DNA of 64,000 nucleotides from Bacteroidales bacterium (GTDB lineage: Bacteria; Bacteroidota; Bacteroidia; Bacteroidales; P3), in NCBI GenBank assembly GCA_017616895.1, contig JAFZXE010000005.1, positions 62,001-126,000 of the forward strand. The letters are read 5' to 3'. Each line of letters opens with the position of its first letter. The stretch's first letter is position 1. Positions 1,153 to 52,394 of this stretch are shown in pieces. The notes under the pieces are model-generated. The model searched no databases and was not told the DNA's origin. It was given only the letters and a program-made list of their open reading frames with translations. Position numbers and translations under genes: made by a program.

Positions 1153-1252
1153 ATCTATTTGTATTTTAATTTGTTATTATCTTGGTTTGCATTTGCCGTT
1201 GCGTGAGCCGCAACGCACTCAGGGCGATAACGGTTCGTGGCTAATCGGTTTG

Positions 1253-1260: not shown

Positions 1261-1274
1261 GGCAAATTTTGTCA

Positions 1275-2027: not shown

Positions 2028-2142
2028 AGCAACTGTATTTTAATATAACACTGTAATTTAATAACAAAAGAATTACCCTCCCCCTAAATATAACGAAATA
2101 ACACAATAACGAAATCACACCCCAACACAAACTCCCCAATTG

Positions 2143-2174
2143 CAAATATACAAACAAATCCCGACATAAACAAA
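2143..2174 (-). promoter_or_regulatory. Promoter for the DUF6266 gene
   Basis: On the minus strand TTTG (2174-2171) is followed after 20 nt by TATATTTG (2150-2143). This matches the Bacteroidota -33/-7 arrangement and lies about 115 nt before the DUF6266 ATG. Confidence 0.6.
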
Positions 2175-2510
2175 CGCCACCACTCTCCAATTCACCATCC
2201 CGCACAAAACCAACAAAATACAATACAGCGAAAACCTCCGACAACCTCCCATCACCCCCAACATCGACCAATCCCGCCACCGAATCCCCACCGAATCGTC
2301 CTTAGCCGTATCATATACTTATCATAGACTTGATACGACCAACCACCATCCCGCCAACAACTTAACCACCACCCCAAACCACCCGTCTTGTCAGTCACCC
2401 TCAAAAATATCCACACAACAGCCAATCCCAAGAATAATGCCGACAACCACAGTGTTAAAACCGTTAAACACCCTGAAATTCATTCAATAACCCAAGAAAA
2501 AGAAAATAAA

Positions 2511-2542
2511 GTTGCCCAATTCGGATTATATACGTAAATTTG
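2511..2542 (+). promoter_or_regulatory. Promoter at the left edge of the island
   Basis: GTTG at 2511-2514 and TAAATTTG at 2535-2542, 20 nt apart, fit the Bacteroidota -33/-7 consensus. It points towards the island genes that begin at 2933, which would give the first transcript an unusually long (about 385 nt) leader. Confidence 0.5.
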
Positions 2543-2932
2543 CACCCGAAATCGACGAGAGTATTGTCGAGCAATGCGATGAAAGCATTTGTAAGGTCCG
2601 AAAACTGAAATTTCGCCAAAAAATATCGGAGGACTTGATACTGATGCCTTTTTGTTTTGCCTTTATGTATGGTCTTTTGGCCGTAGCATATCGGAGGCAT
2701 AGGATAAGGTTTAAGCAGTTTCTATTCCGATAAGGCGTTTGGCGATGCCTCAGTTTCATAGGACTGAACAACACGAGTTCTATGCTTTTTTTTGTTATGC
2801 ATAATTGCCAACAACAGAGAACTCTTCATGAAAGGAAAAATAAAGACATAAACAAACAAAACCTCTTTCTAACCACCACTTGAATTCAACTTGCAAGGCA
2901 ACAAATAAATAATAAAACTAATAAAACTATTA

Positions 2933-4453
2933 ATGAATACAATTATTAGAACTAAGCAGAAAACATTCCCATTTTTGATGTTGATTGCAGTTTCAGTGCT
3001 GACATGTTCGTGCAAAAGTGCCTTGGACAAGGCTGTAGGACCTGCTGTCAGGGACGGGGTAGTGAACCAGGAAGAATGGCAGGTCATAGCTGACGCTGCA
3101 AAAAACAACAAAAATTATACAACAGAGGACGCGGCTTTGAATGTTGATAAACTGAAGCAATACGTCCGTGACTATGCAAAAAAGCACAGGCGCAATCTTG
3201 AAGAGCTTGAATTTGACGTTGACTTCTCTGCATATCAGCAAGGCGGAGACTCAACGTCAAACGACAATCAGATAGTTTTTAAGTTTTTCTTGGAACGCAG
3301 CGGCAGCATGATACCCTACGATTACAGTAAAAATGCTGGTCAATTCAAAGATGCCATAATAACTCTTTTAGGCAATGTCCCCAACAATGGTGACACCAGA
3401 AACCTCATGTTTGTTGTGAACAACGAGGTCACTGTATTCAAGAAAACATTTAAGGATTTTGTGCAGAGTGGCAACATTATGGAAGACACTAAAGGTTATG
3501 GGGATCCCAGCAACACTGATTTTTCACGTATATTCGACTCTGTGCTGAATCGCACTAGCGACAATGAGGTAAGCATCTTAGTGTCTGATCTCATCTATTC
3601 TACGCCTGACCATAAAAACCTCAATGCCCAACGAATACTATCGGCAGCCCAGGCCCTTTCAAAAGACTGTTTTAAGGGTCACGAAGACAAGGACATCTTA
3701 ATCATCAAGCTAAATGCTGACTATAATGGAAAGTATTACCCATACAATAGTCCAAACAAGGGCTACCAATACGATGGTCAGCGTCCCTATTACATGATGA
3801 TTGTCGCCAAGTCACCAGTCATGCAGCGACTGTTCTCAGAAAAAAAATACAATGACTTTTGCAATTTCAAGGACCTCAACGGTTACGAAAACTACTATTG
3901 CTTCACGCGACACAATGACAATCCTGACTATTCCATCCTATTCAAAAACAGCAGCCGTTTTGCTGCCGAGAAAGGTCAGAAACAAATTCATAACATAAAA
4001 AATCTTGAAAGTGATCGGCGCTCCGGCGAGTGTACACTAACAATAGCGGTTGACATGAGCCATATTATCACCGAACCACAATACCTTACCGACCCCGACA
4101 ACTACGAAATCCAGTCAAAATCCGGTTTCACTATAACGGAAATAACACCTATCGACACCGAAAAACCATCCACAGATGTTTCTCACTATGTACCAACGGC
4201 AACTCACCTAATCACCCTATCCACCAGCGATAAACTTTGCAATGAACAGTTGGTCATTAGCTTGAAAAACGAGTTCCCGTCATGGATCGAAAATTCATCA
4301 ACAGATGATGACACCAACCCCAAGCATCCTGATTTCAAAACCACAACATTCGCCTTCAAATCTATGATGGAAGGTATTTATCAGGCTTTTTATTCCACAT
4401 CGCAAGAGCATCAGTATTATTACAGCCTGACATTCAGTATTAAGAAAAAATAA
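2933..4453 (+). CDS. von Willebrand A-like lipoprotein, first gene of island
   Basis: A 506-residue protein. The N-terminus is a signal peptide with a Cys at 27 (LTCSC) followed by KSALDK, indicating a lipoprotein. From about residue 112 a vWA-like fold is suggested by the hydrophobic strand FKFFLE, then ERSGSM at 121-126, a version of the metal-site DxSGS motif with Glu-Arg in place of Asp-x. A later strand and turn, SILVSDLIYS (about 217-226), corresponds to the usual fourth strand with Asp. The remaining roughly 200 residues look beta-rich and unassigned. vWA domains typically mediate protein contacts through a bound metal. It leads a twelve-gene co-oriented cluster with a tubulin-like and an Hsp70-like protein. 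The lipidated location implies an extracytoplasmic partner for the cytoplasmic NTPases. Confidence 0.8.
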   Translation: MNTIIRTKQKTFPFLMLIAVSVLTCSCKSALDKAVGPAVRDGVVNQEEWQVIADAAKNNKNYTTEDAALNVDKLKQYVRDYAKKHRRNLEELEFDVDFSAYQQGGDSTSNDNQIVFKFFLERSGSMIPYDYSKNAGQFKDAIITLLGNVPNNGDTRNLMFVVNNEVTVFKKTFKDFVQSGNIMEDTKGYGDPSNTDFSRIFDSVLNRTSDNEVSILVSDLIYSTPDHKNLNAQRILSAAQALSKDCFKGHEDKDILIIKLNADYNGKYYPYNSPNKGYQYDGQRPYYMMIVAKSPVMQRLFSEKKYNDFCNFKDLNGYENYYCFTRHNDNPDYSILFKNSSRFAAEKGQKQIHNIKNLESDRRSGECTLTIAVDMSHIITEPQYLTDPDNYEIQSKSGFTITEITPIDTEKPSTDVSHYVPTATHLITLSTSDKLCNEQLVISLKNEFPSWIENSSTDDDTNPKHPDFKTTTFAFKSMMEGIYQAFYSTSQEHQYYYSLTFSIKKK

Positions 4454-4478
4454 TTAATAAATATTAAAAGGTACAAAT

Positions 4479-4937
4479 ATGAAAAATCCGAAGTACACCA
4501 AAAAGAAAGACTGGATATGGCTTATATCCGGACTTGTTGTCACTGCCCTTTACTTAATCTTCAGTACTCAGTTGTATGAGCTGTTGTACTACAATGGAGA
4601 GTTCTCTAACGAGATGTATAGTGAAAACATGTATCTTGTAGTGGCGGCCTACACATCCATACTCGTGTGGGCGGTTGCAGTACTATACTATCTTGTGATT
4701 GATCGCTTCGAGCGTTGGTATCATTGGTTGATAGCCTTGGTCGTTGTGCTCGCGCTTTCGCCCACTGTTACATATTTTTATTGTGGAAACTATTTTAAAG
4801 ACAATGATCTTGATTTACTGATGATTCCTTTGAAGAATTTCAACATCATCAATACCGTCATCACATTGGTTATGTTTTGTATAGCATGCCTGTCAGTGAA
4901 GAAACTCAGCAGTCATTGCTCGACAACCCCATTTTAA
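4479..4937 (+). CDS. Small integral membrane protein (four helices)
   Basis: A 152-residue protein with four hydrophobic segments at roughly residues 10-31, 48-70, 78-100 and 120-143, and basic residues at the N-terminus (MKNPKYTKKKD). I recognise no family. It starts 25 nt after the vWA lipoprotein gene and ends 29 nt before the tubulin-like gene, so it is probably translated from the same message. By position it could link the extracytoplasmic vWA protein to the cytoplasmic tubulin-like and Hsp70-like proteins; that is inference from context only. Confidence 0.75.
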   Translation: MKNPKYTKKKDWIWLISGLVVTALYLIFSTQLYELLYYNGEFSNEMYSENMYLVVAAYTSILVWAVAVLYYLVIDRFERWYHWLIALVVVLALSPTVTYFYCGNYFKDNDLDLLMIPLKNFNIINTVITLVMFCIACLSVKKLSSHCSTTPF

Positions 4938-4966
4938 TATCACTTTGTAATTCACATTATCAATAT

Positions 4967-6505
4967 ATGAGACTATTTGTATTTGCAATTGGAGGCACTG
5001 GCTCGAGGGTGCTTACATCGCTCGTAATGCAGCTTGCTGCTGGCATGTGTCCTAAAGATCATGAGGGCAATCCGATTAAAAACCTCACCATAGTTCCAAT
5101 AATTGTTGACCCGCACGAGGACAATGCAGGCCTACAACAGGTCAAAAGTCTGCTAAATCATTATCGCACCATACGGAAACGAATTTATGGTGACGATCCT
5201 AATGGCGAAGGCTTTTTTGGCGTGAAGATTGAAACGTTGCGCGAAGCTGAGCCGGAAAGCGGAGTGTCATCCGACAATTTTTTCTTCCGTATGCAGCGTG
5301 TAAGCGACAACAGTTTTGACAAGTTTATTGGATTGGAGTCTATGTCGCTGGAAAATAAGTTGTTTGCGCAGATGTTGTTCTCTGATGAGGAACTCCAAAC
5401 AGAGATGAAAGAGGGCTTTTATGGATCACCTAATATAGGTTGTGTCGCCTTGAACGAGTTTCGGCGTTCTGAAGATTTCACTGCATTCCGCACAGCATAT
5501 AATCCAGGAGACCGTATATTCTTCATCGGTTCCATTTTCGGCGGCACAGGCGCATCAGGTCTCCCGTTGTTCATATCTTCAATTAGGGATTTAGGCCATC
5601 GTGACAGCGATGATGATGGACGTGCAGCGTGTTCAGAGGCCCCCATCGGAGCTCTTATTGTAATGCCTTATTTTTCAATAACTCCTGACGAAGATTCTCC
5701 CATAAACGAAAACGACTTCACAATAAAGACTCGTTCTGCATTACGCTATTACTACACAAACTTGAATCAGTACATAAACAATATATACTATATTTCCGAT
5801 CCCGATGGCACCAAAGCTTTCGAGAATGATCCAGGTAGTGGGAACCAGTCAAAAAATAAGGCTCACATAGTAGAATTCGCAGGGTCATTGGCGATGATGG
5901 ATTTCCTTGCCGAGCCGGAAACGGATATGTTGTTCAAACAAGATTCTTTTGGGCGCGTAGTTGTGGAAAAATGTTCCACAAAAGCATACGGTCTTGTTAC
6001 GGACAATTCGCATATCCATTTCAAAGGTCTTTCTGCACAAACTGACGAGCTTGTCATGAAACCAATGATGAGTTTCTATCTTCTGAGAGAGTTTATGCAA
6101 AACTATCTGAAAGATATGCTTGAAAAGCCATTTGCAAAAGACCATACTCCTAAAATACAAAAGAGTATCTATGATAACAGGGAAATAAAAGAATTTTTCA
6201 AGATGTTCGACGAGTGGACAAGTCAGATGAAAGACCATGGCCCATCCGCGCATAACCTCGAATTATTCAAACAAGTTAACGATAAAAACTATGCAGGAGC
6301 ATTCCATGATGAGCCAAGTACGAAAAAGGGCTTGTTTGGAGGTCGAAAGGATTTGAAACCCAAAGATATCCAACTTATGCTTGATAAAGCAGCCCAAGAA
6401 GTAGGAGACAAAGAGCCTCAAGAAAAACGATGGTTTACTCTTGCACAGATAGCGATGAATAAGCTTATAGATGAAATGTACGATACGGATACGCTACTCA
6501 AATAG
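4967..6505 (+). CDS. Tubulin/FtsZ-like GTPase
   Basis: A 512-residue protein from the ATG at 4967. An in-frame extension to 4877 exists but overlaps the preceding gene and lacks family features, and the conserved fold begins at once with MRLFVFAIGGTGSRVL. GGTGS at 9-13 is the first nucleotide loop and GGTGASG at 192-198 is the tubulin signature (GGGTGSG in FtsZ). The DPHED segment near residue 47 and a long variable C-terminus (after about 350) are not assigned. Proteins of this tubulin-like class bind GTP and may polymerise. FtsZ-like families paired with vWA proteins have been proposed as membrane-remodelling systems by Makarova and Koonin, and this locus also has a vWA gene two positions upstream. 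It is not the cell-division FtsZ: the overall sequence and length differ. Confidence 0.8.
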   Translation: MRLFVFAIGGTGSRVLTSLVMQLAAGMCPKDHEGNPIKNLTIVPIIVDPHEDNAGLQQVKSLLNHYRTIRKRIYGDDPNGEGFFGVKIETLREAEPESGVSSDNFFFRMQRVSDNSFDKFIGLESMSLENKLFAQMLFSDEELQTEMKEGFYGSPNIGCVALNEFRRSEDFTAFRTAYNPGDRIFFIGSIFGGTGASGLPLFISSIRDLGHRDSDDDGRAACSEAPIGALIVMPYFSITPDEDSPINENDFTIKTRSALRYYYTNLNQYINNIYYISDPDGTKAFENDPGSGNQSKNKAHIVEFAGSLAMMDFLAEPETDMLFKQDSFGRVVVEKCSTKAYGLVTDNSHIHFKGLSAQTDELVMKPMMSFYLLREFMQNYLKDMLEKPFAKDHTPKIQKSIYDNREIKEFFKMFDEWTSQMKDHGPSAHNLELFKQVNDKNYAGAFHDEPSTKKGLFGGRKDLKPKDIQLMLDKAAQEVGDKEPQEKRWFTLAQIAMNKLIDEMYDTDTLLK

Positions 6506-6544
6506 TATATCCGGGTGAGTAATAACAGAATAATAAATAAGACT

Positions 6545-9500
6545 ATGAAGAAAAAGTTAATGTATGGTGAAAGCTCTGATCCGGGATGGAGCAGTTGCAA
6601 TATATATGGAGAAAGAGAGGTTGGGGAGATTGTTGACCCAACCAATACTAAACAAAACAAACGTAAAGACCCTAAAGTATCAGTTCCGTCGCCGTTTGCG
6701 CGCTTCGAACTGGTTCAGAAGGCTTTTGCAAATGTTGCTGCTAAAGGCAATCTTGCCGATATGCGTGATATTATTCTTGTGTCGAATGCACTTGATGTTT
6801 TTGAGCTGTTCTATGAAGGTGCAGAAGGTTTGGAAATAGTTGAATGGTGTAAGAATGACTCCATTAAAGCCTTGAATGAGAGCGGTGATGCTGGCAATAA
6901 ACTCTATGGTCAGTCGCTCGAACTTTATATGCGGCAGGAAAACTATGGTTTCGATGCCACCACCTACCATCGTTACAACAATGTTGCCGTCGATGATGTT
7001 ACAATATATATATTGACCTATAACCGAGAGCCAGTCGGTTGCACCTCTCCAACCTCAATGTTTTTGGCGACCTCACGTCCTGACAGATTCAAGAGCAGTT
7101 TGAGTATTGAGGGTAATATGCCGCTTTTTGCCACCAAGAAACGGATGCTTGCAGAACGCGACGATGCCTTTATCGAATATGTCTATCGCTGCCATGCCTG
7201 CATGAAACAGTTTCAAGATACAGTGAAACCGTTAACCTCATTCTTCGATTATCTGAAAAAACAACTAGAGGTTATCAGGAATACAAAGCCTCAATTGTAT
7301 AGAGCCGTCAATGAACTATTTTATACAGAAGAGGAACTGTCTAATGTATATGCTGAGACACCTCTCAAGGTTTTGGGCTTTAAGTTGTATCAGAGGAGAA
7401 CTGAAGATCTTCAAGATAGAATTAAGAATGAGAGTGCATTCATTATTGATTCAACTAAATCGGATAAAAAACCTTTAGTGTTAACCAATAATTCTACCTA
7501 CAATGGGTGGCCTTATCTATCAAGAAGCAATACATATAGCTGTGATAGTCATAGGATAGACTATACGACAATAAGGGAATTGCAGACACGTAAGAAATTG
7601 CCCGGTACTGAAACTGAATATGAAGGTGGTTGGTTATGCGAAAACGATTTCTTGTCTGACGTGTTGGTTCAATTGCCTTATCCGTTGGACACAGCCCATT
7701 TCTTTAACGGTAATCTGGTAAACGCAACAAAGTACTACTATTTACCGCCCATCCGTTCAAGGTATTTTGAGTATTTCGATATAGACACCATATACGATCC
7801 GTCTGGCACTTCAGACCGTTATGGATCCGATAAGAGGTTGAAGATAGAAGAAATACGCAAAGGGGAAACCGTCGAGAAGGTAATTGTCACATTGCTTGTA
7901 CCTGTACGATGTGGCGGTAATGGGGGGCAGGTCGTGCGATTGGTTCGTGAATATATACCTGATGAAAATGGATTCCTTACAGCTGGAAGTTCAAGCAAAG
8001 AAAGGTCGGTTGGTCGCATAGTCGAATGTCCTATTGCCGTGAATATTTTCCCATTTGCAAGACTTGAATCCAAAAACCATTATAGGATCCAATCCATACA
8101 TTCAGCCGACAATCTTGATGGATTCTCTGTTGAGATGACAGCATGTGCAAAAGGTGCCCAGGCTATAATGGAATGGGATGATGATTGGGAACGAAACACA
8201 GGGAAAACGCACTACTATTCGCTAAACAACGCTTTTGATTATCTCCGTATCAAAATTACTGACGGCACACGGCGTCACGAATCAGTATTAATCCCTATCT
8301 GGGGAGGGACGTATTCGGGGTCGCTTAGCTATAAATTCTCGTTTGACTTCGGCACAACCAATTCCCACATAGCAGTATTACGTGACGAAAAAGACATTAT
8401 TGACTTCAAGGTGGGCAAGTCTATCGTTTCAACGCTTAACCAGAAGGATAAATATGGACAGGTTTATCGTGATGAAATCACAAACATTCTGACATTGGAT
8501 GTTTTGATGAAACAAGAGTGGCTGCCGGAAGAAATTGGTGTTGACTATACATTCCCGTTGCGAACCGTTGTATTACGCAATGTTGGACTTAATCTTGATG
8601 TTACGACACCGCGGGCACTGGAGCATGTGAATATACCTTTCATTTATGGAAAGGAAGACTACGGTCAATCGAACATGCCTGTTCCGAATCTTAAGTGGAC
8701 TGTTGATCCTGAAAAAAGGAAGTTGTCGGTTGCATTCATTGAAGAGTTGGCATTGTTAGCCCGTGCGTTTGCAATCGAAAATAACGGAGATTTGTCGAAA
8801 TGCTCGTTTGTGTGGACATATCCGCTCAGTATGAGAAAGAGTGATGCCGATGAATTTGATGAAGAGTGGAACAAGTATTATAACAATTATTTTTCAGGCG
8901 AAGAAGGTTCTGGGAATGCAAATGTTTCTAGAATGACTGAATCTATTGCCCCGTTGCTATACTATCAGTCAGAACACAAAGATTTGGACAACATGGGCCT
9001 CTCGATTGATATTGGAGGTGGTACTTGCGACGTCGTGGTCAAAAGAAATAACGAGGACATCAAGTTCACGTCGTTCCGATATGCTGCCGATGTAATATTT
9101 GGAGCAGGCAAAGCATCGGAAAATCCCATGATACAAAAACACTACGACTATTTCAGCCGTATGTTGAAAGAGTACAAAAAGAAGAACAGTGATGTGCAGA
9201 AGATTATTGACATGATGAAAAAGGCATGTGAGAGTGACGTGGAAGCAACTGAGGCTAATTCAGTCCTGTTCGCGCTGGAGAGCCATCCACTGCTGCAGAA
9301 AGTGGCAAAGCCTGACAAGTCGTATAATGTCCAATTAAAGAACGACAGGTTGCGCAAGGTGATTTTCCTCTATTTTTACGCCTCGATAGTATATTATCTC
9401 ACGCGGCTGTTACAAGATTTCGGTTATCCTCAACCTGCACGATTCATGTTCAGCGGTACAGGTTCTAAGATGCTTAACATCATTGGTAGTGTGGATGACT

Positions 9501-10066
9501 TGAAAGATTTGACAACATCGTTGGTCCAGACTTTCTCTGGTGGAAAGTATTCATACAAGATTCCTATAGATATTGTTATTGAAACGAAGGAACCCAAACA
9601 GATAACAGCGAAAGGTGCTTTACATGTGATTCAAAAAGGTGACGACAAAGATGTTGCAAAACGATACTCCAATCCCAAGAAAGTGGAAGAGGATACTATT
9701 CGTTATTCCCTTGTTAGCGTTAAAGACGAGCAGGGAAATTCACGCCAATTGTTGTATGAGGATTTGAATGATGAGGGTATAAAGAACACAGTGGTCTCTG
9801 AAGTGGAGCGTTTCCACAAATTGTTCATAGATAGTTTTGGACCGTTGAATTTTGTTGATGACTACCATTGTGACGAGCAGGGGTTGAGTCAGTTCAAAAA
9901 TCTGATGCAGCAGCTTGAACCGTTGGAGGATTATATGAATACTGAAATTCGTGATTTCGACAGGCACGATGTGGACAAGTATCCCAAGAATGTCTTCGAG
10001 GGCTCATTGTTCTTCTATCCTATCAAGTATATACTTCAACATAAAATCATACCAAATCTAAAATAA
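6545..10066 (+). CDS. Giant Hsp70/actin-fold ATPase with large N-terminal region
   Basis: A 1173-residue protein from the ATG at 6545; a GTG at 6515 would add ten residues. The first 590 residues are unassigned. Then comes an ASKHA (Hsp70/actin) ATPase domain: the phosphate-1 motif DFGTTNS at 601-607, the phosphate-2 motif DIGGGTCD at 822-829, and the adenosine motif FSGTGSK at 969-975. The last 150 residues are outside the nucleotide fold. There is no signal peptide and no membrane segment, so it is cytoplasmic. DnaK has its ATPase at the N-terminus, so the inverted order with a 590-residue head is unusual; SrfB-type virulence proteins have a comparable layout, but I cannot establish homology. 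It follows the tubulin-like gene after 39 nt, putting a tubulin-type and an actin-type NTPase in one transcription unit. Confidence 0.8.
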   Translation: MKKKLMYGESSDPGWSSCNIYGEREVGEIVDPTNTKQNKRKDPKVSVPSPFARFELVQKAFANVAAKGNLADMRDIILVSNALDVFELFYEGAEGLEIVEWCKNDSIKALNESGDAGNKLYGQSLELYMRQENYGFDATTYHRYNNVAVDDVTIYILTYNREPVGCTSPTSMFLATSRPDRFKSSLSIEGNMPLFATKKRMLAERDDAFIEYVYRCHACMKQFQDTVKPLTSFFDYLKKQLEVIRNTKPQLYRAVNELFYTEEELSNVYAETPLKVLGFKLYQRRTEDLQDRIKNESAFIIDSTKSDKKPLVLTNNSTYNGWPYLSRSNTYSCDSHRIDYTTIRELQTRKKLPGTETEYEGGWLCENDFLSDVLVQLPYPLDTAHFFNGNLVNATKYYYLPPIRSRYFEYFDIDTIYDPSGTSDRYGSDKRLKIEEIRKGETVEKVIVTLLVPVRCGGNGGQVVRLVREYIPDENGFLTAGSSSKERSVGRIVECPIAVNIFPFARLESKNHYRIQSIHSADNLDGFSVEMTACAKGAQAIMEWDDDWERNTGKTHYYSLNNAFDYLRIKITDGTRRHESVLIPIWGGTYSGSLSYKFSFDFGTTNSHIAVLRDEKDIIDFKVGKSIVSTLNQKDKYGQVYRDEITNILTLDVLMKQEWLPEEIGVDYTFPLRTVVLRNVGLNLDVTTPRALEHVNIPFIYGKEDYGQSNMPVPNLKWTVDPEKRKLSVAFIEELALLARAFAIENNGDLSKCSFVWTYPLSMRKSDADEFDEEWNKYYNNYFSGEEGSGNANVSRMTESIAPLLYYQSEHKDLDNMGLSIDIGGGTCDVVVKRNNEDIKFTSFRYAADVIFGAGKASENPMIQKHYDYFSRMLKEYKKKNSDVQKIIDMMKKACESDVEATEANSVLFALESHPLLQKVAKPDKSYNVQLKNDRLRKVIFLYFYASIVYYLTRLLQDFGYPQPARFMFSGTGSKMLNIIGSVDDLKDLTTSLVQTFSGGKYSYKIPIDIVIETKEPKQITAKGALHVIQKGDDKDVAKRYSNPKKVEEDTIRYSLVSVKDEQGNSRQLLYEDLNDEGIKNTVVSEVERFHKLFIDSFGPLNFVDDYHCDEQGLSQFKNLMQQLEPLEDYMNTEIRDFDRHDVDKYPKNVFEGSLFFYPIKYILQHKIIPNLK

Positions 10067-10073
10067 TATAAAT

Positions 10074-11198
10074 ATGAAAAAGATACTGTGTATTTTAGCA
10101 ACACTTTCGATTGCCTTCGTCTCGTATGCTGATAAGGCTACGGAAGATCAAATAAACAGGGCCAAGGCCATAGCTGCCTATCATGTAAACAAACTGTCAA
10201 AGCCGGAGCGGTTTACTGAGAATACTTGCCCCAAAGACATGACTATTGAAAAAATCCAGGAAAAAATCAAAGATTTAGAGGATAATAAACGTTTGACGGA
10301 TTTCATTGCCAAATCCAAGCCTCAAAACGAAATAGACTCGTCTGTTTTTAGATTTTATTCGGAAACATTGTTTGAAGAATCCGTTTTTTTTGATTTTTTC
10401 AAAAAACAGCCAGACAGAAAAGAAAAATTGCATAACATGCTGGGAAACGAATTGGCTGATATTCTGAATATGGGGACGCAAAAAAATGAAACGCCAAAAC
10501 AAGAAAAGCAATTGCAAGAGTCAAAGACGACTAAGGACTCTGATCCGCGTGAAAGTCGTCAGCCTCGCTCAGGTTTAATTCCTGCACTGTCGTTACTTTT
10601 AGCTGTATTGGCAATGGGTGCGGCTGTATTTCTGTATATGTTGTTCGTGAAAATGAAAAACATGTTGCAAGACTTACGTATTAGCAACAATCACCGTAAG
10701 GAAGAAATTGATTCGTTGAAACAGCGCATTGATCGATTGGAAGGCGACTCATTGAAAAGTCGAAATATGATGACAGAAATGCAACGAAAGGTAACTGAAA
10801 ATACCAAGTCCATACAAAGTGCTTCAACCAATGGTCAGCAAACCGTCGGAGGTGGTCGGCCTTTTGCAAGTACGCAACGCCCTGTTGAAACCGTAAAAGA
10901 ATATTATGCGGGTGTTCCATTTGATGGATGTTTCAAGGCCAATGAGAACTACTCCACGAAGATGCTTTACAAGTTGACGACACGAGGCGAGGCTGTCGGA
11001 GAATTTGAATTTGTGAATCGCTCCGAAGCGGTCGCCATAGCCCAACAGTCGAAGACATCGTTTCTTGACCCTGCCTGTAACATAGTTAATGACGATATTG
11101 CAAGCTTCAGCAGTATTGTAACAGAACAAAAAGGTAAAATTGAAAAGACAGACAATGGTTGGAAAATCACCCAAAAGGCTGTTATACGTCTTGCTTAG
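10074..11198 (+). CDS. Exported/membrane coiled-coil protein of the island
   Basis: A 374-residue protein. Residues 1-19 are a signal peptide ending in SYA. An alpha-rich segment up to about 155 follows, then a transmembrane helix at about 165-192. After it comes a coiled coil (about 195-250, heptads such as IDSLKQRIDRLEGDSL), and finally a C-terminal beta-rich domain of about 110 residues. With a cleaved signal and one later helix, the N-terminal part would be periplasmic and the coiled coil plus C-terminal domain cytoplasmic, facing the Hsp70-like and tubulin-like proteins. That topology would let it act as the envelope link of the system (inference). It starts 7 nt after the ATPase gene and its end overlaps the next gene by 44 nt, a sign of coupled translation. 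Confidence 0.7.
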   Translation: MKKILCILATLSIAFVSYADKATEDQINRAKAIAAYHVNKLSKPERFTENTCPKDMTIEKIQEKIKDLEDNKRLTDFIAKSKPQNEIDSSVFRFYSETLFEESVFFDFFKKQPDRKEKLHNMLGNELADILNMGTQKNETPKQEKQLQESKTTKDSDPRESRQPRSGLIPALSLLLAVLAMGAAVFLYMLFVKMKNMLQDLRISNNHRKEEIDSLKQRIDRLEGDSLKSRNMMTEMQRKVTENTKSIQSASTNGQQTVGGGRPFASTQRPVETVKEYYAGVPFDGCFKANENYSTKMLYKLTTRGEAVGEFEFVNRSEAVAIAQQSKTSFLDPACNIVNDDIASFSSIVTEQKGKIEKTDNGWKITQKAVIRLA

Positions 11199-11754
11199 CC
11201 TAACACTACTTGTAAGTTCGTGCCAATATAGACCCAAACACCGCGGTGAGACAACTTCTCGCCGCGGGTATAGGAGCGAAGAAACTTCTCGTTCGGCAAA
11301 ATTGTCGGACAGCGACTCCGAATCTCGTAGGGAACGCCGCAACAGAAAAGGTGCCACACACAGTGGGGGTACAACGCGAGTGCCACTAGAGAAGGCCGAC
11401 GGAGTCTATTATGTAATGGCAAAGGTGAATGACGTGCCAATGAAGTTTGTATTCGACACGGGCGCTGGCATCATTTCTATGTCACTCACGGAGGCACAGT
11501 TTCTTTACAAGCAAGGCACTCTTACGGATGACGATTTTGTAGATGTAATGCAGTTTCAAGATGCAAACGGTGATTTGTCGGAATCGTTGATAGTTATGTT
11601 AAGAGAGGTCGAAATTGGTGGGGTGGTGTTGCATGATGTCGAGGCCTCGATAGTGCCCAACCAAACGGCTCCGCTGCTTCTTGGTCAAACTGCGTTAAGT
11701 CAGTTTAACAAGGTCTCAATAGACTACAAACACAACCAGTTAATACTCGAATAA
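11155..11754 (+). CDS. Retropepsin-like aspartic protease lipoprotein
   Basis: A 199-residue protein from the ATG at 11155 (a TTG at 11140 is less likely). The signal peptide ends in LVSSC, so it is a lipoprotein. After a basic, Arg/Ser-rich linker, a single clan AA aspartic protease unit covers about 75-199: FVFDTGAG with the catalytic Asp at 101, then LGQTALSQF, then a closing strand. Retropepsin-like proteases of this size work as dimers. It overlaps the previous gene by 44 nt and is followed after 4 nt by the first zinc-ribbon gene. A membrane-tethered periplasmic protease in this locus suggests processing of a partner. The hydrophobic-hydrophobic-Gly motif near the end is present as LLLGQ, so activity is plausible. 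Confidence 0.8.
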   Translation: MVGKSPKRLLYVLLSLTLLVSSCQYRPKHRGETTSRRGYRSEETSRSAKLSDSDSESRRERRNRKGATHSGGTTRVPLEKADGVYYVMAKVNDVPMKFVFDTGAGIISMSLTEAQFLYKQGTLTDDDFVDVMQFQDANGDLSESLIVMLREVEIGGVVLHDVEASIVPNQTAPLLLGQTALSQFNKVSIDYKHNQLILE

Positions 11755-11758
11755 CATT

Positions 11759-12316
11759 ATGAAACAGTCATGCCCAGATTGCAAGACGATTGTAGAAATC
11801 GATGAAAGTGAATTTGATCCTGGCAATATTGTAGTAAGAGAGTGCCCATTGTGTGGATCAATGTTGAAGTTCAAGATACCCCCTAGGCCTAAGGTGGTGG
11901 TGAGGACAGAAAAGGTCTATGTGGAAAATCCCGAATCTGCTAGGCAGGAGGAACGAATAAAAGATCTCGAGCAAGAGTTGAGAGATTTAAGAGATATAGT
12001 GTACCATCGAGATACTTCCCATTCTTCAGAAGGTTTATTTACACCGTCGAGCAGCGTATTCCCGTCGCAACCATTTGTTGAAGCGGGACCTGAAGAGTCG
12101 GATTTTATGGAAGAAGTTGATTCTATGACTGCGGAGAATGGTGTGTATGGAATGGAATCAGAACAAGAGTATGAAGATGGGGAAGAATTCCGAAAGGAAC
12201 CTTGGGATTCAAAAGAAGATAAACCAGAGAAGAACCATAACAACTCTTCATGTATGGCTATTATACTCATCCTTCTCATGTTCATTATTCTCTCGGTTAT
12301 ATTGCTTAATGCTTAA
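11759..12316 (+). CDS. Zinc-ribbon protein with C-terminal membrane helix (paralogue 1)
   Basis: A 185-residue protein. Residues 1-45 form a four-Cys zinc ribbon (CPDC at 5-8 and CPLC near 29-32) of the MJ0042-like kind, sharing MKQSCPDCKTIVEIDE with three further proteins in this cluster. A short coiled coil (about 60-85) is followed by a strongly acidic middle region (Asp/Glu-rich, 105-160) and a single C-terminal membrane helix (about 164-184), giving a tail-anchored topology with the ribbon in the cytoplasm. It begins 4 nt after the protease gene. No enzymatic domain is seen; an adaptor role is inference. Confidence 0.75.
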   Translation: MKQSCPDCKTIVEIDESEFDPGNIVVRECPLCGSMLKFKIPPRPKVVVRTEKVYVENPESARQEERIKDLEQELRDLRDIVYHRDTSHSSEGLFTPSSSVFPSQPFVEAGPEESDFMEEVDSMTAENGVYGMESEQEYEDGEEFRKEPWDSKEDKPEKNHNNSSCMAIILILLMFIILSVILLNA

Positions 12317-12329
12317 ATTTTGATAAAAT

Positions 12330-12989
12330 ATGAAGCAGTCATGTCCAGATTGTAAGACAATCATTGAAATTGACGAGAACGAATATCCTGAAAATTGCAG
12401 GCTTGAAAAAGAATGTCCGCATTGTGGCTCGGAAGTGATTTTCTTGATTCCGAAAAGAGAACCAAAGGTGATTGTGAAAGAGGTTCCTGTAGAGGTCGGT
12501 ACCGAGAAAATTGAGGCACAGAATGCGCGGATTGCAGAACTTGAGGCTGAAATGATGAGGTTGAGAGAGCAACAGGCCGCATCTGTTGTAAAGCAGCCTA
12601 CGACCATCGCACCTCCGCCGCCAGTTGTAAAAAATGATATTCCAAGATATGTGCAAACAGCAAGTCGGGCAGAGGTAAAACCAAAACTTGGATGGAACTG
12701 GGGCGCATTTTTGTTAAGTGGATTATGGGGATTGTTTAACGGTTCTGCATGGGCTTTTTTCGTTTTGCTATTGTTGTCCTGGATACCAGTGGCAGGAGCT
12801 ATAATTGATCTGATAGTTTGTATTGTTCTTGGTGTTAATGGTAGCAAGTGGGCTTGGGAGAAAAAGAGTTGGGAGAATGCGGAACACTTCAATCAAGTGC
12901 AGCATAAGTGGGCTGTTGCGGGAGCCATAGTTTTTGTACTGAGTCTTGTTATTGGCGTAATCGTTGCTTTGGTATCGATTGGTATTTAA
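12330..12989 (+). CDS. Zinc-ribbon protein with DUF2628-like membrane domain (paralogue 2)
   Basis: A 219-residue protein. The N-terminal zinc ribbon (CPDC, CPHC) matches the neighbouring paralogues. It is followed by a short coiled coil (60-90), a Pro-rich spacer, and a membrane domain from about 113: WNWGAFLLSGLWGLFNGS, two hydrophobic segments, then GVNGSKWAWEKKSWENAEHF and a last helix. The W-x-W-G-A-F start and the G-N/S-x-W-A-W stretch are typical of small DUF2628-like membrane domains often found fused to zinc ribbons. Function unknown. The gene lies 13 nt after paralogue 1 and 27 nt before paralogue 3. Confidence 0.75.
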   Translation: MKQSCPDCKTIIEIDENEYPENCRLEKECPHCGSEVIFLIPKREPKVIVKEVPVEVGTEKIEAQNARIAELEAEMMRLREQQAASVVKQPTTIAPPPPVVKNDIPRYVQTASRAEVKPKLGWNWGAFLLSGLWGLFNGSAWAFFVLLLLSWIPVAGAIIDLIVCIVLGVNGSKWAWEKKSWENAEHFNQVQHKWAVAGAIVFVLSLVIGVIVALVSIGI

Positions 12990-14175
12990 GACTGGGAAAA
13001 ACTAAGAATAAAGAATATGAAACAGACGTGTCCTGATTGCAAAACCATCATCGAAATTGATGAAAAAGAGTTCACTCCTGGAGAGAAAATTGTCAGAGAG
13101 TGTCCGCTTTGTGGAAACGCTGTGGAATTCATTGTCCCCAAGGAAAAGCAGAGGGTTTTAGTCTCTGAAACGACTTGTATCAAGGAAGTAGAGCCTGTGG
13201 GAGCGAAAAAGGAAATGAAAATAACACAGAAGAGTGCCCAACAGTTTTCTGAAGAAAATGATGTAATACAATCATTGAGGCAGCTTAAAGAGCTTTTTGA
13301 CAGTGGCGTTTTGAATCGGGATGAGTTTGATAAAGAAAAGGCTAAGATTCTTGGAACGGACATCGAACAGCCCAAATCAAGGTCAAGTCAAGATTCCTCA
13401 CCCGTGAAAGTAAACAAAGGGCTGATAATAGGTGGTATATTAGCCTTGGTCGGTGTTATTATTGCTGTAATCATAGTATCAACAGAAAAAAACAAAAGTT
13501 ATGTAATAGAAGATACAGCCGTCCAAGCCATAGACGAGTATGATGGACGGATGGTGTCTCAGCCGTCTGATGTGCGGGTTGAACAATCGAGGCAGAGTGT
13601 CTCGGAATTCAAGAATTCACTTTCTCCCAGAGACATCATTATAGCTACATTTGACGATGATATCTATCATTGTGTATATGTGCATAACCTGGATGATGCC
13701 ACGTTCTATAAATATGATTTGCAACGGCGGGAAAAAGTTTCCTACGAGGAAAGACTTGGCGAAATGATGGCATACCATGTTGCCGCAGCAAAGCAAAGAG
13801 GCGAATACATATACATCATTGCCAATAATAATGCTCTTGGTGAGTTCTTGAAGACTTTTGTCATTAGATTTAATACAACTGACGAATCTTTCGAGGAAAT
13901 AGACAATGGTAGAGAAGCTTCATTTGTTAAAGGAAATAGAATTAAAATTACAGATATGATAATCACCGATAGAGGTGACAGTTGGTCGGACACCGAGGTG
14001 GAATTCAATGATAGGTATCTGTATATATGAACAACGGTGTTTCGGCCACAAGGCCTACAACCTTGGGTTTTGGAAGGTATGACAGTCGTAAACATGGTAA
14101 CATTAGGTAACCCCCGTACATGTTTATTTAGCTTTGTTTGTGGAATAGTTGAGTAGGTGTCGATTGGTATTTAAG
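12975..14175 (+). repeat. Duplication scar: direct repeats flanking the paralogue 3 unit
   Basis: TCGATTGGTATTTAAG occurs at 12975-12990, where it ends the paralogue 2 gene, and again at 14160-14175, just before paralogue 4, where it is non-coding. The segment between them holds paralogue 3 and a 165-nt remnant. The pattern suggests tandem duplication of the stretch from the end of paralogue 2 into a zinc-ribbon start, followed by exchange of the 3' part. Confidence 0.65.
13017..14030 (+). CDS. Zinc-ribbon / SHOCT / membrane protein (paralogue 3)
   Basis: A 337-residue protein. It has a zinc ribbon at 1-42 (CPDC, CPLC), then a SHOCT-like helical pair at about 82-116 (LKELFDSGVLNRDEFDKEKAKIL, quoted here only by position beyond its first residues), a membrane helix at about 135-157, and a 180-residue C-terminal domain that should be extracytoplasmic. 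That domain is beta/alpha mixed and unassigned. SHOCT segments are short oligomerisation modules. The first 110 nt are almost identical to those of the gene at 14195, while the rest is unrelated, which indicates recent duplication or gene conversion of just the ribbon part. Confidence 0.75.
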   Translation: MKQTCPDCKTIIEIDEKEFTPGEKIVRECPLCGNAVEFIVPKEKQRVLVSETTCIKEVEPVGAKKEMKITQKSAQQFSEENDVIQSLRQLKELFDSGVLNRDEFDKEKAKILGTDIEQPKSRSSQDSSPVKVNKGLIIGGILALVGVIIAVIIVSTEKNKSYVIEDTAVQAIDEYDGRMVSQPSDVRVEQSRQSVSEFKNSLSPRDIIIATFDDDIYHCVYVHNLDDATFYKYDLQRREKVSYEERLGEMMAYHVAAAKQRGEYIYIIANNNALGEFLKTFVIRFNTTDESFEEIDNGREASFVKGNRIKITDMIITDRGDSWSDTEVEFNDRYLYI

Positions 14176-14194
14176 AAAAATAATAATAAATATT

Positions 14195-15280
14195 ATGAAA
14201 CAGTCGTGTCCTGATTGCAAAACAATCATCGAAATTGATGAAAAAGAGTTCACTCCTGGAGAAAAAATTGTCAGAGAGTGTCCGCTTTGTGGAAACAGTG
14301 TGGAATTTATAATACCTGATGAAAAAAATGAAGTCAAAGTTGTTGAAACTACGGTCATTAAAGAGGTCGAGTCTGCCGAGTCGAAAAAGAAAATGAAAGA
14401 CCTTCAGAAGAAAGTACAACAGCTTTCCGATGAGAATAATCAGATAAAAGGACAACAGAAAAAAGAGCAGGTATCAACAAAGGCAATAATCATTATAATC
14501 GCAGCGGTGCTTCTATTGGGAGGTATAGTTGGCGGAATATTTTACTATAACAATGTATATCTCCCTGAAAAAAGAGACGCCGAAGCTCCAAGGTACTATG
14601 TAATTGCAGCAAACCTCAATATGCGTTCAACTCCTGAGTTTGACGCAGACTACAATAAAATTGCGTCATTCCCATACGGCACAGAAATACTGATTTATGA
14701 CTCGACAAAATATGTTTCGAAGCCATATATGCATGGCAAGTATGCCCCAGTTGACGCAAGTGGCAAGGTCTTGAAAAAAGACTGTGTGGAAGGATACATA
14801 GCGTATGACTATATGCTACCCAAGGCGGATTTTTTCCTTCTTAACAGTATATTCGGTAATGATGACGCGCGCAAGATGCTTGCCGAGACTAGATACAAGA
14901 GGGCTTTGCTTGCATATTTCATTGAACATAATATTCGAGGCGATATTTCTGCCTCAAAGATGGATGAGTATGGAATTACAGCGGTGTCAAAAGATGCCCA
15001 GCGCTGGCAGGTCTTCTGTCGCTATGAGAAGGCCAAGAGCAACAACGTATATCGTTCAAAAAAATACCGTAAAGACTCGAAATATTCGGATGCTGCAATA
15101 ATAATTCAAAATATAGATAGCGGGGAGAGGAAAATGTTGTATTTCACGTTTGACGATGATGAAACGCCGCATCTGCTTTTTGAACAGTGGGCGCCATCGT
15201 CTGGATATATGAAAGACAGAACTCTTAAACTCAATCAGTCGTATGGTGGTTATTATGTTGATGTCGAATACGAATATTGA
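14195..15280 (+). CDS. Zinc-ribbon / membrane / SH3b-like protein (paralogue 4)
   Basis: A 361-residue protein. The zinc ribbon at 1-42 is nearly identical to paralogue 3. Next come a short coiled coil (about 65-90), a membrane helix at about 95-118, and an SH3b-like domain at about 128-205 (it starts YYVIAANLNMRSTP, the usual 'N-x-R-x-x-P' opening of bacterial SH3 domains). A C-terminal domain of about 150 residues is unassigned. Bacterial SH3 domains often bind cell-wall peptides, so the outer part probably touches peptidoglycan while the ribbon stays in the cytoplasm. The L,D-transpeptidase gene follows 38 nt later, which fits a cell-wall role. Confidence 0.75.
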   Translation: MKQSCPDCKTIIEIDEKEFTPGEKIVRECPLCGNSVEFIIPDEKNEVKVVETTVIKEVESAESKKKMKDLQKKVQQLSDENNQIKGQQKKEQVSTKAIIIIIAAVLLLGGIVGGIFYYNNVYLPEKRDAEAPRYYVIAANLNMRSTPEFDADYNKIASFPYGTEILIYDSTKYVSKPYMHGKYAPVDASGKVLKKDCVEGYIAYDYMLPKADFFLLNSIFGNDDARKMLAETRYKRALLAYFIEHNIRGDISASKMDEYGITAVSKDAQRWQVFCRYEKAKSNNVYRSKKYRKDSKYSDAAIIIQNIDSGERKMLYFTFDDDETPHLLFEQWAPSSGYMKDRTLKLNQSYGGYYVDVEYEY

Positions 15281-15318
15281 AATAGTAATTTGAGTTGATA
15301 TAATTCAAACGTAGTTAT

Positions 15319-15885
15319 ATGACGTGGAAGAAACTTGGTCTATATGTATTGTTGCTCATTGTTATAGTTTTGCCGTATATTGGTTTTTTTTATGTTGTGC
15401 GATGGTATAAGCAAAAAGTAGAAAAGATAGAAAAGGCTGCGGTAATAATAATAGATAAGGAAAAGCTTGCGCTTTCATTAATTGATTACAATGGGGCAAC
15501 TCGTATGACATGCCCTATTGCATGTGGGAAAAACTATGGAAACAAAGAGAAGCAGGGGGATATGAAAACACCTGAAGGTGTTTTCCATGTGAGCGACATT
15601 CAGGATGCTTCGGATTGGAAGCATGACTTTCACGATGGGAAAGGGGAAATAGCCGGCGCTTACGGGCCTTTTTTTATCAGACTTGACACACCAGGACACA
15701 AAGGCATTGGCATACATGGAACACATCTTCCAGAATCAATCGGAACGCGCGCTACCGAAGGGTGTGTTCGTTTAAAAAATGAAGATCTCTTGGAGTTGAA
15801 AAAGAATGTGTATGTTGGGATGTCTGTGATAATTACTCCTTCAAGCAAGGATGCATCATCGTTTGAGTCGGCAGATTCTCAATAG
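15319..15885 (+). CDS. Membrane-anchored L,D-transpeptidase (YkuD domain)
   Basis: A 188-residue protein with an N-terminal membrane anchor (about 5-28) and a YkuD domain from about 38. Visible marks are GDMKTPEGVF (the substrate-loop G-D-x-x-T-P-x-G), IHGTH with His133, and the catalytic Cys149 in ATEGCVRL. The family norm is S/T-x-G-C-(I/V)-R/N; here Glu replaces the common His of SHGC. Such enzymes cross-link peptidoglycan or attach proteins to it through meso-diaminopimelate. Its place in the cluster after an SH3b-bearing membrane protein suggests local wall remodelling or anchoring of the machine. Activity is likely because Cys, Arg and the upstream His are all present. Confidence 0.85.
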   Translation: MTWKKLGLYVLLLIVIVLPYIGFFYVVRWYKQKVEKIEKAAVIIIDKEKLALSLIDYNGATRMTCPIACGKNYGNKEKQGDMKTPEGVFHVSDIQDASDWKHDFHDGKGEIAGAYGPFFIRLDTPGHKGIGIHGTHLPESIGTRATEGCVRLKNEDLLELKKNVYVGMSVIITPSSKDASSFESADSQ

Positions 15886-15969
15886 CTGAGGTGATTGGTT
15901 CGTCAAAAAACACATGTGGGCTACCGATTATTCAAATAATAGCATGCTCAACAATAAATAGTTTACATT

Positions 15970-16389
15970 ATGGACAAAAAAGCTTTTTTATTGCTTATAA
16001 TTATTTTTGCAAGTCTTTGCATTTCAGGATGTACTAGCAAGGTCGAACGGAACATTAACAGCCTCGAAACCATAGTAACGGATGTTGAGGAAAACGGTGA
16101 CAACTATTCTGTGAAGGATTGGGACCAAATTAATCAAAAATATGAAAAAACGATTGATCGGATAGCGGCATCATCCGACAAGTTAACTCCTGAACAAAAC
16201 AGAGAAATCGGCAGGTTGTATGCAAGATACCATAAGGCTGTTATGAAAAGTGCGTTGAATAGTTTATCGGATTATATTGATGCGGCTGATGAGCAGCTAA
16301 AAGGATACAGTGAAGAAATGTTTGGTGGTGATTGGGACTCTTTTCTTGAGGATAATGGTGGCATTGAGAATTTGTTTGACGATTTGTGA
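15970..16389 (+). CDS. Small helical lipoprotein, last gene of island
   Basis: A 139-residue protein. The signal peptide ends in ISGC (Cys21), so it is a lipoprotein. The mature part is predicted helical (KVERNINSLETIVTDVEEN and following) with a Tyr/Lys-rich middle and an acidic end (DDL). It resembles small Bacteroidales lipoproteins of the DUF6565 kind, but I am not sure of the match. It lies 84 nt after the transpeptidase gene, in the same direction, and a palindrome follows 52 nt after its stop. Confidence 0.65.
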   Translation: MDKKAFLLLIIIFASLCISGCTSKVERNINSLETIVTDVEENGDNYSVKDWDQINQKYEKTIDRIAASSDKLTPEQNREIGRLYARYHKAVMKSALNSLSDYIDAADEQLKGYSEEMFGGDWDSFLEDNGGIENLFDDL

Positions 16390-16440
16390 TAAATCGTTTT
16401 AGATTCAACTTCCAAGTTGCAAAACTAATTAATTAATAAA

Positions 16441-16460
16441 GTGCCGAAATTAATCGGCAC
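16441..16460. other. Perfect inverted repeat after the island
   Basis: GTGCCGA and TCGGCAC flank a 6-nt AT loop. No T-run follows, so it fits an operator or factor-dependent end better than an intrinsic terminator. It sits 18 nt before a TACCTTTG box. Confidence 0.6.
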
Positions 16461-16759
16461 AATCCGGGAAAATTGATTACCTTTGTGTTGAAATGAAAAA
16501 AACAACCATCTTGCCCACGAGTAAAGATGGGCAGTTTCCGTGTGTTCGAAAGAAGACAAGACGAATGGTGATTTTGCAGGTTTTATAGTGTGCTCAAATC
16601 AACTGTGAGCAGGGTGATGAAACGTTACACCAATTCCTATGGATGCTATGTCTTAAAGGATGCCGATATGTTCGCCAGAATGGACTCCCATTAGACTCAA
16701 CAGTTGCGTTGCACTTGGTTGTTGCCTCCGTGTAACTGTGCATTTGCATCAAAAACTTT

Positions 16760-16787
16760 TTTGTATCAAAAAAAAATCGTACTTTTG
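16760..16787 (+). promoter_or_regulatory. Promoter for the DUF4143 ATPase gene
   Basis: TTTG at 16760-16763 and TACTTTTG at 16780-16787, about 45 nt before the ATG at 16832. The spacing of 16 nt is slightly short. Confidence 0.55.
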
Positions 16788-16831
16788 CAAATCTAAACTT
16801 TAATAAAGTTGTCCAATATTAAAGTGCTACT

Positions 16832-17971: not shown

Positions 17972-18247
17972 GTGTGTTCCTCAAAATCGGCTATTTGCAA
18001 ACATTTGTCCACAAGGTGTCTTTCATTTACTTGTAACGCAAATATTGGTATGAAGTCGGTATTGAAGTACTGACGGATGGGTGTGAGTTTGTATTGCCGG
18101 CTTGAATCATGCCGCCAAAGGTAAACGCATTATGGTGGATTATTTGTGCATAAAAATATATCAGTCGGCAGTCCGAAAATTGCAAAAAAACGTATCTTTG
18201 TACTTTCATGATTATTGATTTTAATAACAAATAACAATATTAATTAC
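17972..18247. other. Intergenic leader of gcvP
   Basis: No gene seen. The right end holds the gcvP promoter box and a short leader. Confidence 0.5.
18193..18200 (+). promoter_or_regulatory. Promoter -7 box TATCTTTG for gcvP
   Basis: TATCTTTG lies 48 nt before the gcvP ATG. A standard -33 box is not clear. Confidence 0.6.
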
Positions 18248-52392: not shown

Positions 52393-52394
52393 CT

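Follow-up and report, generated by a model that had tools for sequence, protein, structure and literature searches.

Among the described systems closest to the locus analysed here is the FtsZ-like (FtsZl1)/vWA system, for which Makarova and Koonin in 2010 predicted a role in membrane remodelling together with OmpA-type and GTPase partners (PMC2875224, accessible text). In Zorya, the ZorAB motor is accompanied by ZorCD or ZorE, and Kaur et al. in 2020 placed tubulins and HSP70s in the DO-GTPase/GAP1 conflict systems (PMC7159879, accessible text). The division pair FtsZ and FtsA, a tubulin-fold GTPase adjoining an actin-fold ATPase at the membrane, serves us as a working analogy. Our subject is a window of 64,000 nucleotides from a Bacteroidales bacterium (assembly GCA_017616895.1, contig JAFZXE010000005.1, positions 62,001 to 126,000), and within it an island of twelve genes, g1 to g12 (Table 1), which encode among others a vWA lipoprotein (g1), a tubulin-like GTPase (g3) and a giant actin-fold ATPase (g4).

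We read the island as one lineage's form of a conserved cell-envelope machine, so far uncharacterised, in which a membrane-tethered tubulin/actin assembly would be coupled to the cell wall, and we give this reading a probability of about 0.58. That the genes make up a candidate single machine is suggested by the wall enzyme and lipoproteins in the run, the invariant motifs of its nucleoside triphosphatases (NTPases), and the conserved co-occurrence of its genes. The function may lie in remodelling, sensing or defence.

Like the FtsZl1 systems, which are patchy and in which a diverged tubulin GTPase lies beside vWA, transmembrane (TM) and, in several genomes, OmpA-type proteins (PMC2875224, accessible text), the window has a vWA gene in the same operon as its tubulin gene. 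Unlike in those systems, a giant FtsA/MreB-like ATPase is a constant partner here; in the accessible main text of PMC2875224, the terms "actin", "Hsp70" or "MotB" occur in 13 places, and none of the 12 inspected names such a partner. The majority of FtsZl1 proteins are of a coiled-coil form of ~1000 amino acids (aa), and the type protein has 1051 aa with an extended coiled coil and a helical C-terminal domain, whereas the tubulin here has about 500 aa, an unlikeness judged by length only. Further additions to what the FtsZl1 systems have are a four-TM (4-TM) protein, a conserved TM/coiled-coil (TM/coil) protein and the ZorAB-type motor of relatives. A Bacteroides caccae sequence stands in an alignment legend of PMC2875224, where its family is not stated. 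The vWA-FtsZl1 association is mentioned once in the accessible text of Makarova et al. 2015 (PMC5898192), and "tubulin" never occurs in the accessible main text of a survey of MotAB stators (PMC12505986).

The preliminary description had put the machine forward as a candidate undescribed one. This is not wholly so, as a membrane system of vWA, FtsZ-like and OmpA-type proteins was predicted in 2010 (PMC2875224, accessible text); for the present machine, the proposed relation to those systems and the reach from cytoplasmic NTPases to the wall are supported. An actin-fold partner and a Zor-type motor were not found described in the open-access literature, in which, apart from PMC2875224 and PMC7159879, no further system of tubulin, actin/Hsp70 and vWA or ZorAB proteins appeared; subscription papers lay outside that search.

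Five genes form the conserved unit

A genome collection was scanned with the ATPase alignment alone, which returned at least 42 named loci, and genes on the fetched loci were called with a simple longest open reading frame (ORF) script. Among the matches listed, a tubulin-like gene lies upstream of the ATPase gene, on the same strand, in all 42 named loci; the two are directly adjacent in 41 and separated by one 133-aa ORF in L047. The vWA gene was called in 41 of the 42, the 4-TM gene (g2) in 39, and the C-terminal domain of the TM/coil protein g5 was found in 35. At two of the three 4-TM misses, the gene caller had placed an antisense ORF there. The gene order vWA, 4-TM, tubulin, ATPase, TM/coil, and the strand of the core, are conserved in nearly all of these loci. 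Their record titles include Prevotella, Bacteroidales, Flavobacteriaceae, Hymenobacter, Pedobacter, Mucilaginibacter and Fibrella, together with one cyanobacterium (Xenococcus) and one Roseburia. The record titled Roseburia (L062) holds a Bacteroidota-like copy of the system, either by a binning error or by transfer. Seven further genomes, at least two of them the same strains as named loci, have the vWA, tubulin, ATPase and g5 genes in every case, the 4-TM gene in 6/7 and both motor genes in 4/7. Pairwise distances of tubulin and ATPase are correlated across 54 loci (r = 0.956).

The conserved unit is five genes, or seven with the motor pair of relatives. Homologues that never occur together elsewhere, which would have told against a single system, are not what was found. 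Of the larger, twelve-gene version proposed earlier, the single system stands, with tubulin and ATPase together wherever a locus was listed, and the twelve-gene unit does not, g6 to g12 being variable. A gathering of unrelated neighbours in an AT-rich island, with no system at all, would be compatible with that variation from lineage to lineage. We regard it as highly improbable, and for the core it is already refuted: order and strand are kept across several families, and two Hymenobacter genomes (one complete in 3 contigs, the other fragmented) lack the ATPase and the motor protein B jointly.

The identities of g1, g3 and g4 were obtained through alignments and profiles of relatives, and their folds rest on profiles. 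With the window's own proteins, Pfam detected neither the vWA domain nor the g4 ATPase, and Tubulin_2 matched g3 with E=0.16, below the cut-off. The profiles of relatives recovered both the vWA lipoprotein and the tubulin-type GTPase named in the preliminary description, at E=4e-6 and E=6e-45.

In g3, eleven positions checked in the GGTGxR and SIFGGTGxxG motifs are invariant in 46/46 homologues. Where the FtsZl1 paper has GGGTG[S/T]G, the loop here is FGGTGxxG, with GGTG and the last G present in all 46 homologues; these relatives are 464-574 aa long. By profile (hhalign, E=6e-45), g3 aligns with a set of distant relatives, Xenococcus among them, and the ATPase is linked to this set as well. 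Of four distant relatives scanned with Tubulin_2, a family we take to be equivalent to FtsZl1, Xenococcus (L065) passes, with 40 bits against a cut-off of 27, and three fall below. Loci L018-L023 were assumed to be an FtsZl1 outgroup, similarity to Tubulin_2 having been checked on L018, L020 and L022 only. The best solved match of g3 is a Tubulin/FtsZ GTPase (PDB 3zid), at only E=0.017 in the profile search. Two of these distant tubulin/giant-ATPase loci, L018 and L022, come from the same genus and have one more large protein encoded behind the giant ATPase (L018 11484-13547, 688 aa; L022 14703-17186, 828 aa, the latter with TPR matches).

The ATPase g4 carries an actin-type phosphate-1 motif (DxGTxN), a phosphate-2 motif (DxGG...D) and a C-terminal glycine motif. 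Nine motif positions, including the first C-terminal G, are conserved in 46/46 sequences and the tenth, the next G, in 43/46. Its profile matched MreB (1e-4) and an actin-family protein (3e-4) in the PDB. Its alignment with 22 FtsA sequences covered 189 columns at E=1.3e-9, and one with nine FtsA of the same genus gave 9.9e-9, compared with E 0.12-0.83 for twelve column-shuffled controls and E=1.1e-3 over 77 columns, at a probability of 20, for DnaK. At the level of profiles, g4 has an FtsA/MreB-like actin-fold ATPase core. The label "Hsp70-type" given earlier holds for the superfamily and fails for the family: PF00012 gave no match, no Pfam hit being seen at E<=0.5, and FtsA and MreB fit better. 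A GAP1 identity of g4 likewise found no support in Pfam. FtsA itself has a 1C subdomain and a C-terminal amphipathic helix. Unlike in the division pair, g4 is two to three times the size of FtsA, and g3 is not significantly alignable to FtsZ; ordinary FtsZ, FtsA and DnaK are encoded elsewhere in the window's genome. Within the window's genus, 58/69 genomes gave matches to the g4 profile over short stretches only, in ORFs mostly of FtsA or MreB size, and the g4 ATPase had no match in phage records.

Upstream of these genes, g1 keeps its lipobox Cys27 and the second conserved Asp, D219, in 47/47 aligned homologues. Its MIDAS-like ExSGSM motif departs from the canonical DxSxS at position 121, which is Glu in 43/47 and Asp in 4/47; a Gloeothece vWA relative has Asp at the corresponding position. 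Aligned with 17 BatA/B-type vWA proteins from relatives, g1 gave E=3.9e-6 at a probability of 87, while five control profiles were non-significant, and with vWA neighbours from cyanobacteria it gave E=3.7e-18. No vWA match was obtained against the PDB. A vWA fold is accordingly assigned to g1 at profile level. Homologues of g2 were called in 43/47 Bacteroidota loci, and in L016 a single ORF comprises a vWA domain followed by a TM region. Downstream of the system in the same locus we noted by eye a KGGxGR-type ATPase and a small protein (10487-12202 and 9726-10490), presumably of a kind found in conflict systems. A model of the g5 C-terminal domain matched 40 of the 54 sources searched, all among the 47 Bacteroidota loci. 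The g5 counts use this model in place of the gene cluster "CC" because coiled coils had merged g5 with zinc-ribbon proteins in that cluster.

A ZorAB/MotAB-type motor in relatives

Many relatives encode a putative motor downstream of the ATPase. Motor A, which is MotA/ExbB-like with a long coiled-coil tail, was found in 25/33 listed named loci outside the window's clade, and motor B, which is MotB-like with an OmpA-type C-terminus, in 24/33; over all listed named loci, the counts are 25/42 and 24/42. The motor is absent from all twelve loci of the window's clade. In a midpoint-rooted tree, motor-bearing loci fall on several branches other than this clade, and the simplest reading, with a rooting that is not independent, is that the motor was lost in the window's lineage.

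The closest solved relative of motor B by profile is ZorB of the Shewanella type I Zorya system (8VVN, 2e-13), compared with 7e-8 for 8qyd, a membrane protein of the ZorAB complex whose chain A is labelled ZorA, and 0.017 for flagellar MotB. Structures 8VVN and 8VVI are both of ZorAB (PMC11890865, accessible text). The membrane Asp of motor B is invariant (27/27). With PADLOC, L015 gave ZorB1 at 3e-14 and ZorA1 at 1e-6; overall, each of the three B subunits scanned had ZorB1 as its top match (3e-14, 7e-7, 5e-6), and one A subunit out of three had ZorA1, and as far as its matches here go PADLOC shows no ordinary MotAB to compare with. Pfam matches were all below cut-off: one of the three A subunits matched MotA_ExbB at 0.005, and two of the three B subunits matched MotB_plug or OmpA. 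Among PDB matches of motor A, unrelated coiled coils dominate, and ZorA appears at 1e-3.

The likeness to Zorya, in the closeness of B to ZorB and the long cytoplasmic tail of A, makes the main alternative a system directed against phages or predators, working in the way of Zorya or of the NTPase-thresholded systems that Kaur et al. described. The vWA protein and motor would then sense envelope damage, tubulin and actin would act as a switch or a confining scaffold, and the variable downstream genes would be effectors. We think this unlikely. The PADLOC matches to ZorB1 and ZorA1 speak for it, as do the variation of the downstream genes, the AT-rich inserted block described below and the patchy occurrence in the window's genus (4/69). 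Tubulin, HSP70 and vWA proteins have also been proposed as parts of conflict systems, and the DO-GTPase/GAP1 systems resemble the present one in combining tubulin and Hsp70-fold proteins with components of the vWA, TM and zinc-ribbon kinds (PMC7159879, accessible text). In that account, however, the tubulin and HSP70 themes of GAP1-N2 are non-overlapping subsets, mainly in Firmicutes and Actinobacteria, whereas here the pair is constant, and neither DO-GTPase nor GAP1 was matched by Pfam among the twelve island proteins. Nor did Pfam recognise a nuclease or toxin domain, and no P-loop GTPase was recognised, in these twelve. For two of the three motor A subunits, another PADLOC family outscored ZorA, and in the ten window proteins scanned (g7 and g8 excluded) PADLOC gave no Zorya match to ZorC, ZorD or ZorE. 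The present system differs from Zorya in that no motor is encoded in the window, in that its partners in the cytoplasm are tubulin- and actin-superfamily NTPases, and in that it is core in a whole genus (117/120 Hymenobacter genomes), unlike typical defence systems.

The neighbourhoods of the system also argue against a conflict role. Flanks in seven system-bearing genomes gave 7 PADLOC matches per 130 proteins against 4 per 130 in controls, which is no clear excess in a small sample. This test covered 14 flank and 15 control stretches, with 130/131 flank and 130/159 control proteins counted after proteins >900 aa, <100 aa or cut at an edge were left out, and scored model-by-member matches at E<=1e-10. 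The matches fell on 5 PADLOC models in the flanks and 4 in the controls, mad3 and mad8 being in both sets; two of the control models may represent one protein.

Distribution and acquisition of the island

Counts of presence per genome show that the system belongs to the core genome in Hymenobacter and is accessory elsewhere. In Hymenobacter, the ATPase is present in 117/120 genomes and motor B in 118/120 (113/114 of good genomes for each); a fragmented genome has motor B only, and of the 117 genomes with both genes, 111 have them on a single contig. Of 395 genomes drawn evenly from the phylum, 72 had ATPase matches at E<=0.001; only 9 of these, the window's included, had strong matches (E 1e-67 or better, one a fragment), and the others were short and weak. 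Near-full ATPase matches were found in 4/69 genomes of the window's genus, with distant relatives in 2 more. A relative in Prevotella F0039 (L013, NC_022111.1) is carried by a replicon of 1.77 Mb that is filed as a plasmid, in a record with one annotated feature.

As judged from profiles, the trio of vWA, tubulin and giant ATPase is also found in cyanobacteria. Gloeothece and Picosynechococcus each have a plasmid on which genes for a vWA-like protein, a TM protein, a tubulin-like protein, a giant ATPase and a TM/coil protein stand in a row, the Gloeothece vWA gene being on the opposite strand. In the two rows, every protein is named hypothetical except the Gloeothece tubulin and a Picosynechococcus "TM2 domain" protein. 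That two of the three cyanobacterial copies examined are plasmid-borne would suit a filament-based partition or cell-shape system, TubZ/ParM- or MreB-like, that positions DNA or a complex for wall synthesis and is anchored by the membrane parts, and the tubulin and actin superfamilies do supply the classic segregation and shape proteins. We nevertheless consider such a system improbable. A vWA lipoprotein, an L,D-transpeptidase and a wall-binding motor do not fit DNA partition, no DNA-binding adaptor was recognised (the zinc ribbons being a possible exception), no repeat array was found in window 1000-18300, and single-contig Hymenobacter genomes carry the gene on that contig.

In the window, as first described, the island is a co-oriented and A+T-rich run whose genes overlap once, by 44 bp, and are otherwise 4-164 bp apart. 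Its GC content (2933-16389) is 0.410, compared with 0.562 in the left and 0.534 in the right flank, and GC at third codon positions is 0.37-0.51 in the twelve genes against 0.66 in the neighbouring housekeeping gene gcvP. The source genome comprises 2.61 Mb in 31 contigs and is 88% complete; no transfer RNA gene was found within the window. In a close relative, G041, whose gcvP is 96% identical, 597 bp separate the flavodoxin-side match from gcvP, where the window has 16.8 kb. From this empty site and the GC contrast, the island was probably inserted as a block, with an AAA_14/DUF4143 gene included, in agreement with the transfer as a unit that had been suggested. Loss of the block in close relatives, in place of gain in the window's lineage, could also account for the difference. 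The gcvP neighbourhoods of G014, G060 and G043, where the left-flank genes were unmatched in the stretch fetched, are uninformative.

The AAA_14/DUF4143 ATPase gene (16832-17971) lies directly downstream of the island, inside the block missing from close kin, and similar genes occur near the system in L030 and L063. A DUF6266 gene at 1275-2027 and an ORF similar to it by eye at 48098-48904 each edge an AT-rich stretch, the second of which (49000-52500, GC 0.41-0.44) has ORFs of 345 aa and 254 aa that we take to resemble nuclease-type accessory genes. DUF6266 matches also occur at the gcvP-side sites of L134 and L136, and a DUF6266 gene adjoins gcvP in G038; DUF6266 is possibly a marker of an insertion hot spot.

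Accessory genes and a proposed mechanism

Clear Pfam matches among the window proteins are to aspartyl protease, YkuD, SHOCT and DUF6565 (Table 1), and the retropepsin-like lipoprotein and L,D-transpeptidase of the preliminary description are thereby confirmed. Its four zinc-ribbon proteins (g7-g10) are borne out by paired CxxC motifs, visible in all four, though not by profile scores (4e-4 to 0.0026), which are all under the curated cut-offs. Lipobox-type signals are present in g1, g6 and g12, and TM-like segments, single or multiple, in g5 and g7-g11. The paralogues g9 and g10 have in common a 274-nt repeat (77%). Homologues of g6 occur in 7 loci, the window included, and those of g11 lie downstream on the same strand in L014, L024, L034 and L037. 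The nearest clade members (the window, L014 and L024) have zinc-ribbon TM proteins and an L,D-transpeptidase, with the protease in two of the three, and the motor-bearing L037 has protease, transpeptidase and motor together.

Table 1. Features of the island and the surrounding block, in window coordinates. Starts of g3, g4 and g6 were refined by alignment with relatives.
Feature	Position	Strand	Remarks
g1 vWA lipoprotein, 506 aa	2933..4453	+	Lipobox Cys27; MIDAS-like ExSGSM; second conserved Asp D219
g2 four-TM membrane protein, 152 aa	4479..4937	+	Four hydrophobic segments
g3 tubulin-like GTPase, 512 aa	4967..6505	+	N-terminal GGTGxR; SIFGGTGxxG loop
g4 giant actin-fold ATPase (profile level), 1173 aa	6545..10066	+	~570-aa N-terminal region of unknown fold, then FtsA/MreB-like ATPase domain
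g5 signal or N-terminal helix, one TM helix, coiled coil, conserved C-terminal domain	10074..11198	+	TM-like segments 4-22, 165-183
g6 retropepsin-like lipoprotein	11155..11754	+	DTGA active site; lipobox VSSC; Pfam gag-asp_proteas E=3e-15
g7 zinc-ribbon, one TM	11759..12316	+	Zn_ribbon_4 E=4e-4, below cut-off
g8 zinc-ribbon, three TM	12330..12989	+	Zn_ribbon_3 E=0.0026, below cut-off
g9 zinc-ribbon, SHOCT, one TM	13017..14030	+	SHOCT E=1.3e-7; Zn_ribbon_4 E=0.0015
g10 zinc-ribbon, one TM, C-terminal domain	14195..15280	+	Zn_ribbon_4 E=0.0014; partial tandem duplicate of g9
g11 membrane-anchored L,D-transpeptidase	15319..15885	+	YkuD E=5e-19
g12 small lipoprotein, DUF6565	15970..16389	+	DUF6565 E=2e-6, above cut-off; lipobox ISGC
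Block absent from close relative G041	1382..18222		blastn of window 1-24000 vs L134

We hypothesize that the tubulin-like and actin-like NTPases co-assemble at the inner surface of the membrane, much like FtsZ and FtsA, and that the 4-TM and TM/coil proteins would tether this assembly. The vWA lipoprotein, which has a metal-site-like motif, may read or grip an envelope partner, and nucleotide turnover would couple the assembly to the wall and direct local remodelling of wall or membrane. Where a motor is present, it may grip peptidoglycan and add ion-driven force or sensing; the window's version would act through a wall enzyme of its own, the L,D-transpeptidase.

Several observations weigh against an envelope machine of this kind. 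The window's island lacks the motor, and motor B was not found in its own 88%-complete genome (0 matches, E<=1), so that, to the extent that these searches show, an ion-driven step is excluded for the window's version. Accessory wall genes are rare, with the protease in 7/54 sources and the transpeptidase in 5/54, and a conflict system would likewise fit the patchy distribution in Bacteroidales. A place for g3 as a direct member of FtsZ was considered and rejected, its alignment to ordinary FtsZ being not significant (0.2% probability). The g5 C-terminal domain and the 4-TM protein were likewise compared with their cyanobacterial neighbours, and these links are positional, not significant.

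The envelope machine could also be stated in a more specific form, which we hold tentatively and, taken as a whole, find somewhat doubtful. The tubulin GTPase and actin ATPase would then be one obligate assembly at the inner membrane, coupled to the wall through the vWA lipoprotein and a peptidoglycan-gripping Zor-type motor. This would be an envelope-spanning cytomotive complex, core in Hymenobacter, of which the window's lineage would have a motor-less form with a wall-crosslinking enzyme of its own. If so, Zorya would have taken its motor from a non-defence envelope machine, or would have it in common with one.

A pair of tubulin-fold and actin-fold NTPases kept as neighbours outside cell division, accompanied in many lineages by a Zorya-like motor that binds the wall, would connect the study of cytoskeleton evolution with that of ion-driven envelope motors and that of phage defence. 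The motor is a candidate non-defence relative of ZorAB, and the comparison offers candidate functions for proteins that are mostly "hypothetical" in two annotated cyanobacterial records. The near-universal presence of the system in Hymenobacter makes the question of its function directly testable.

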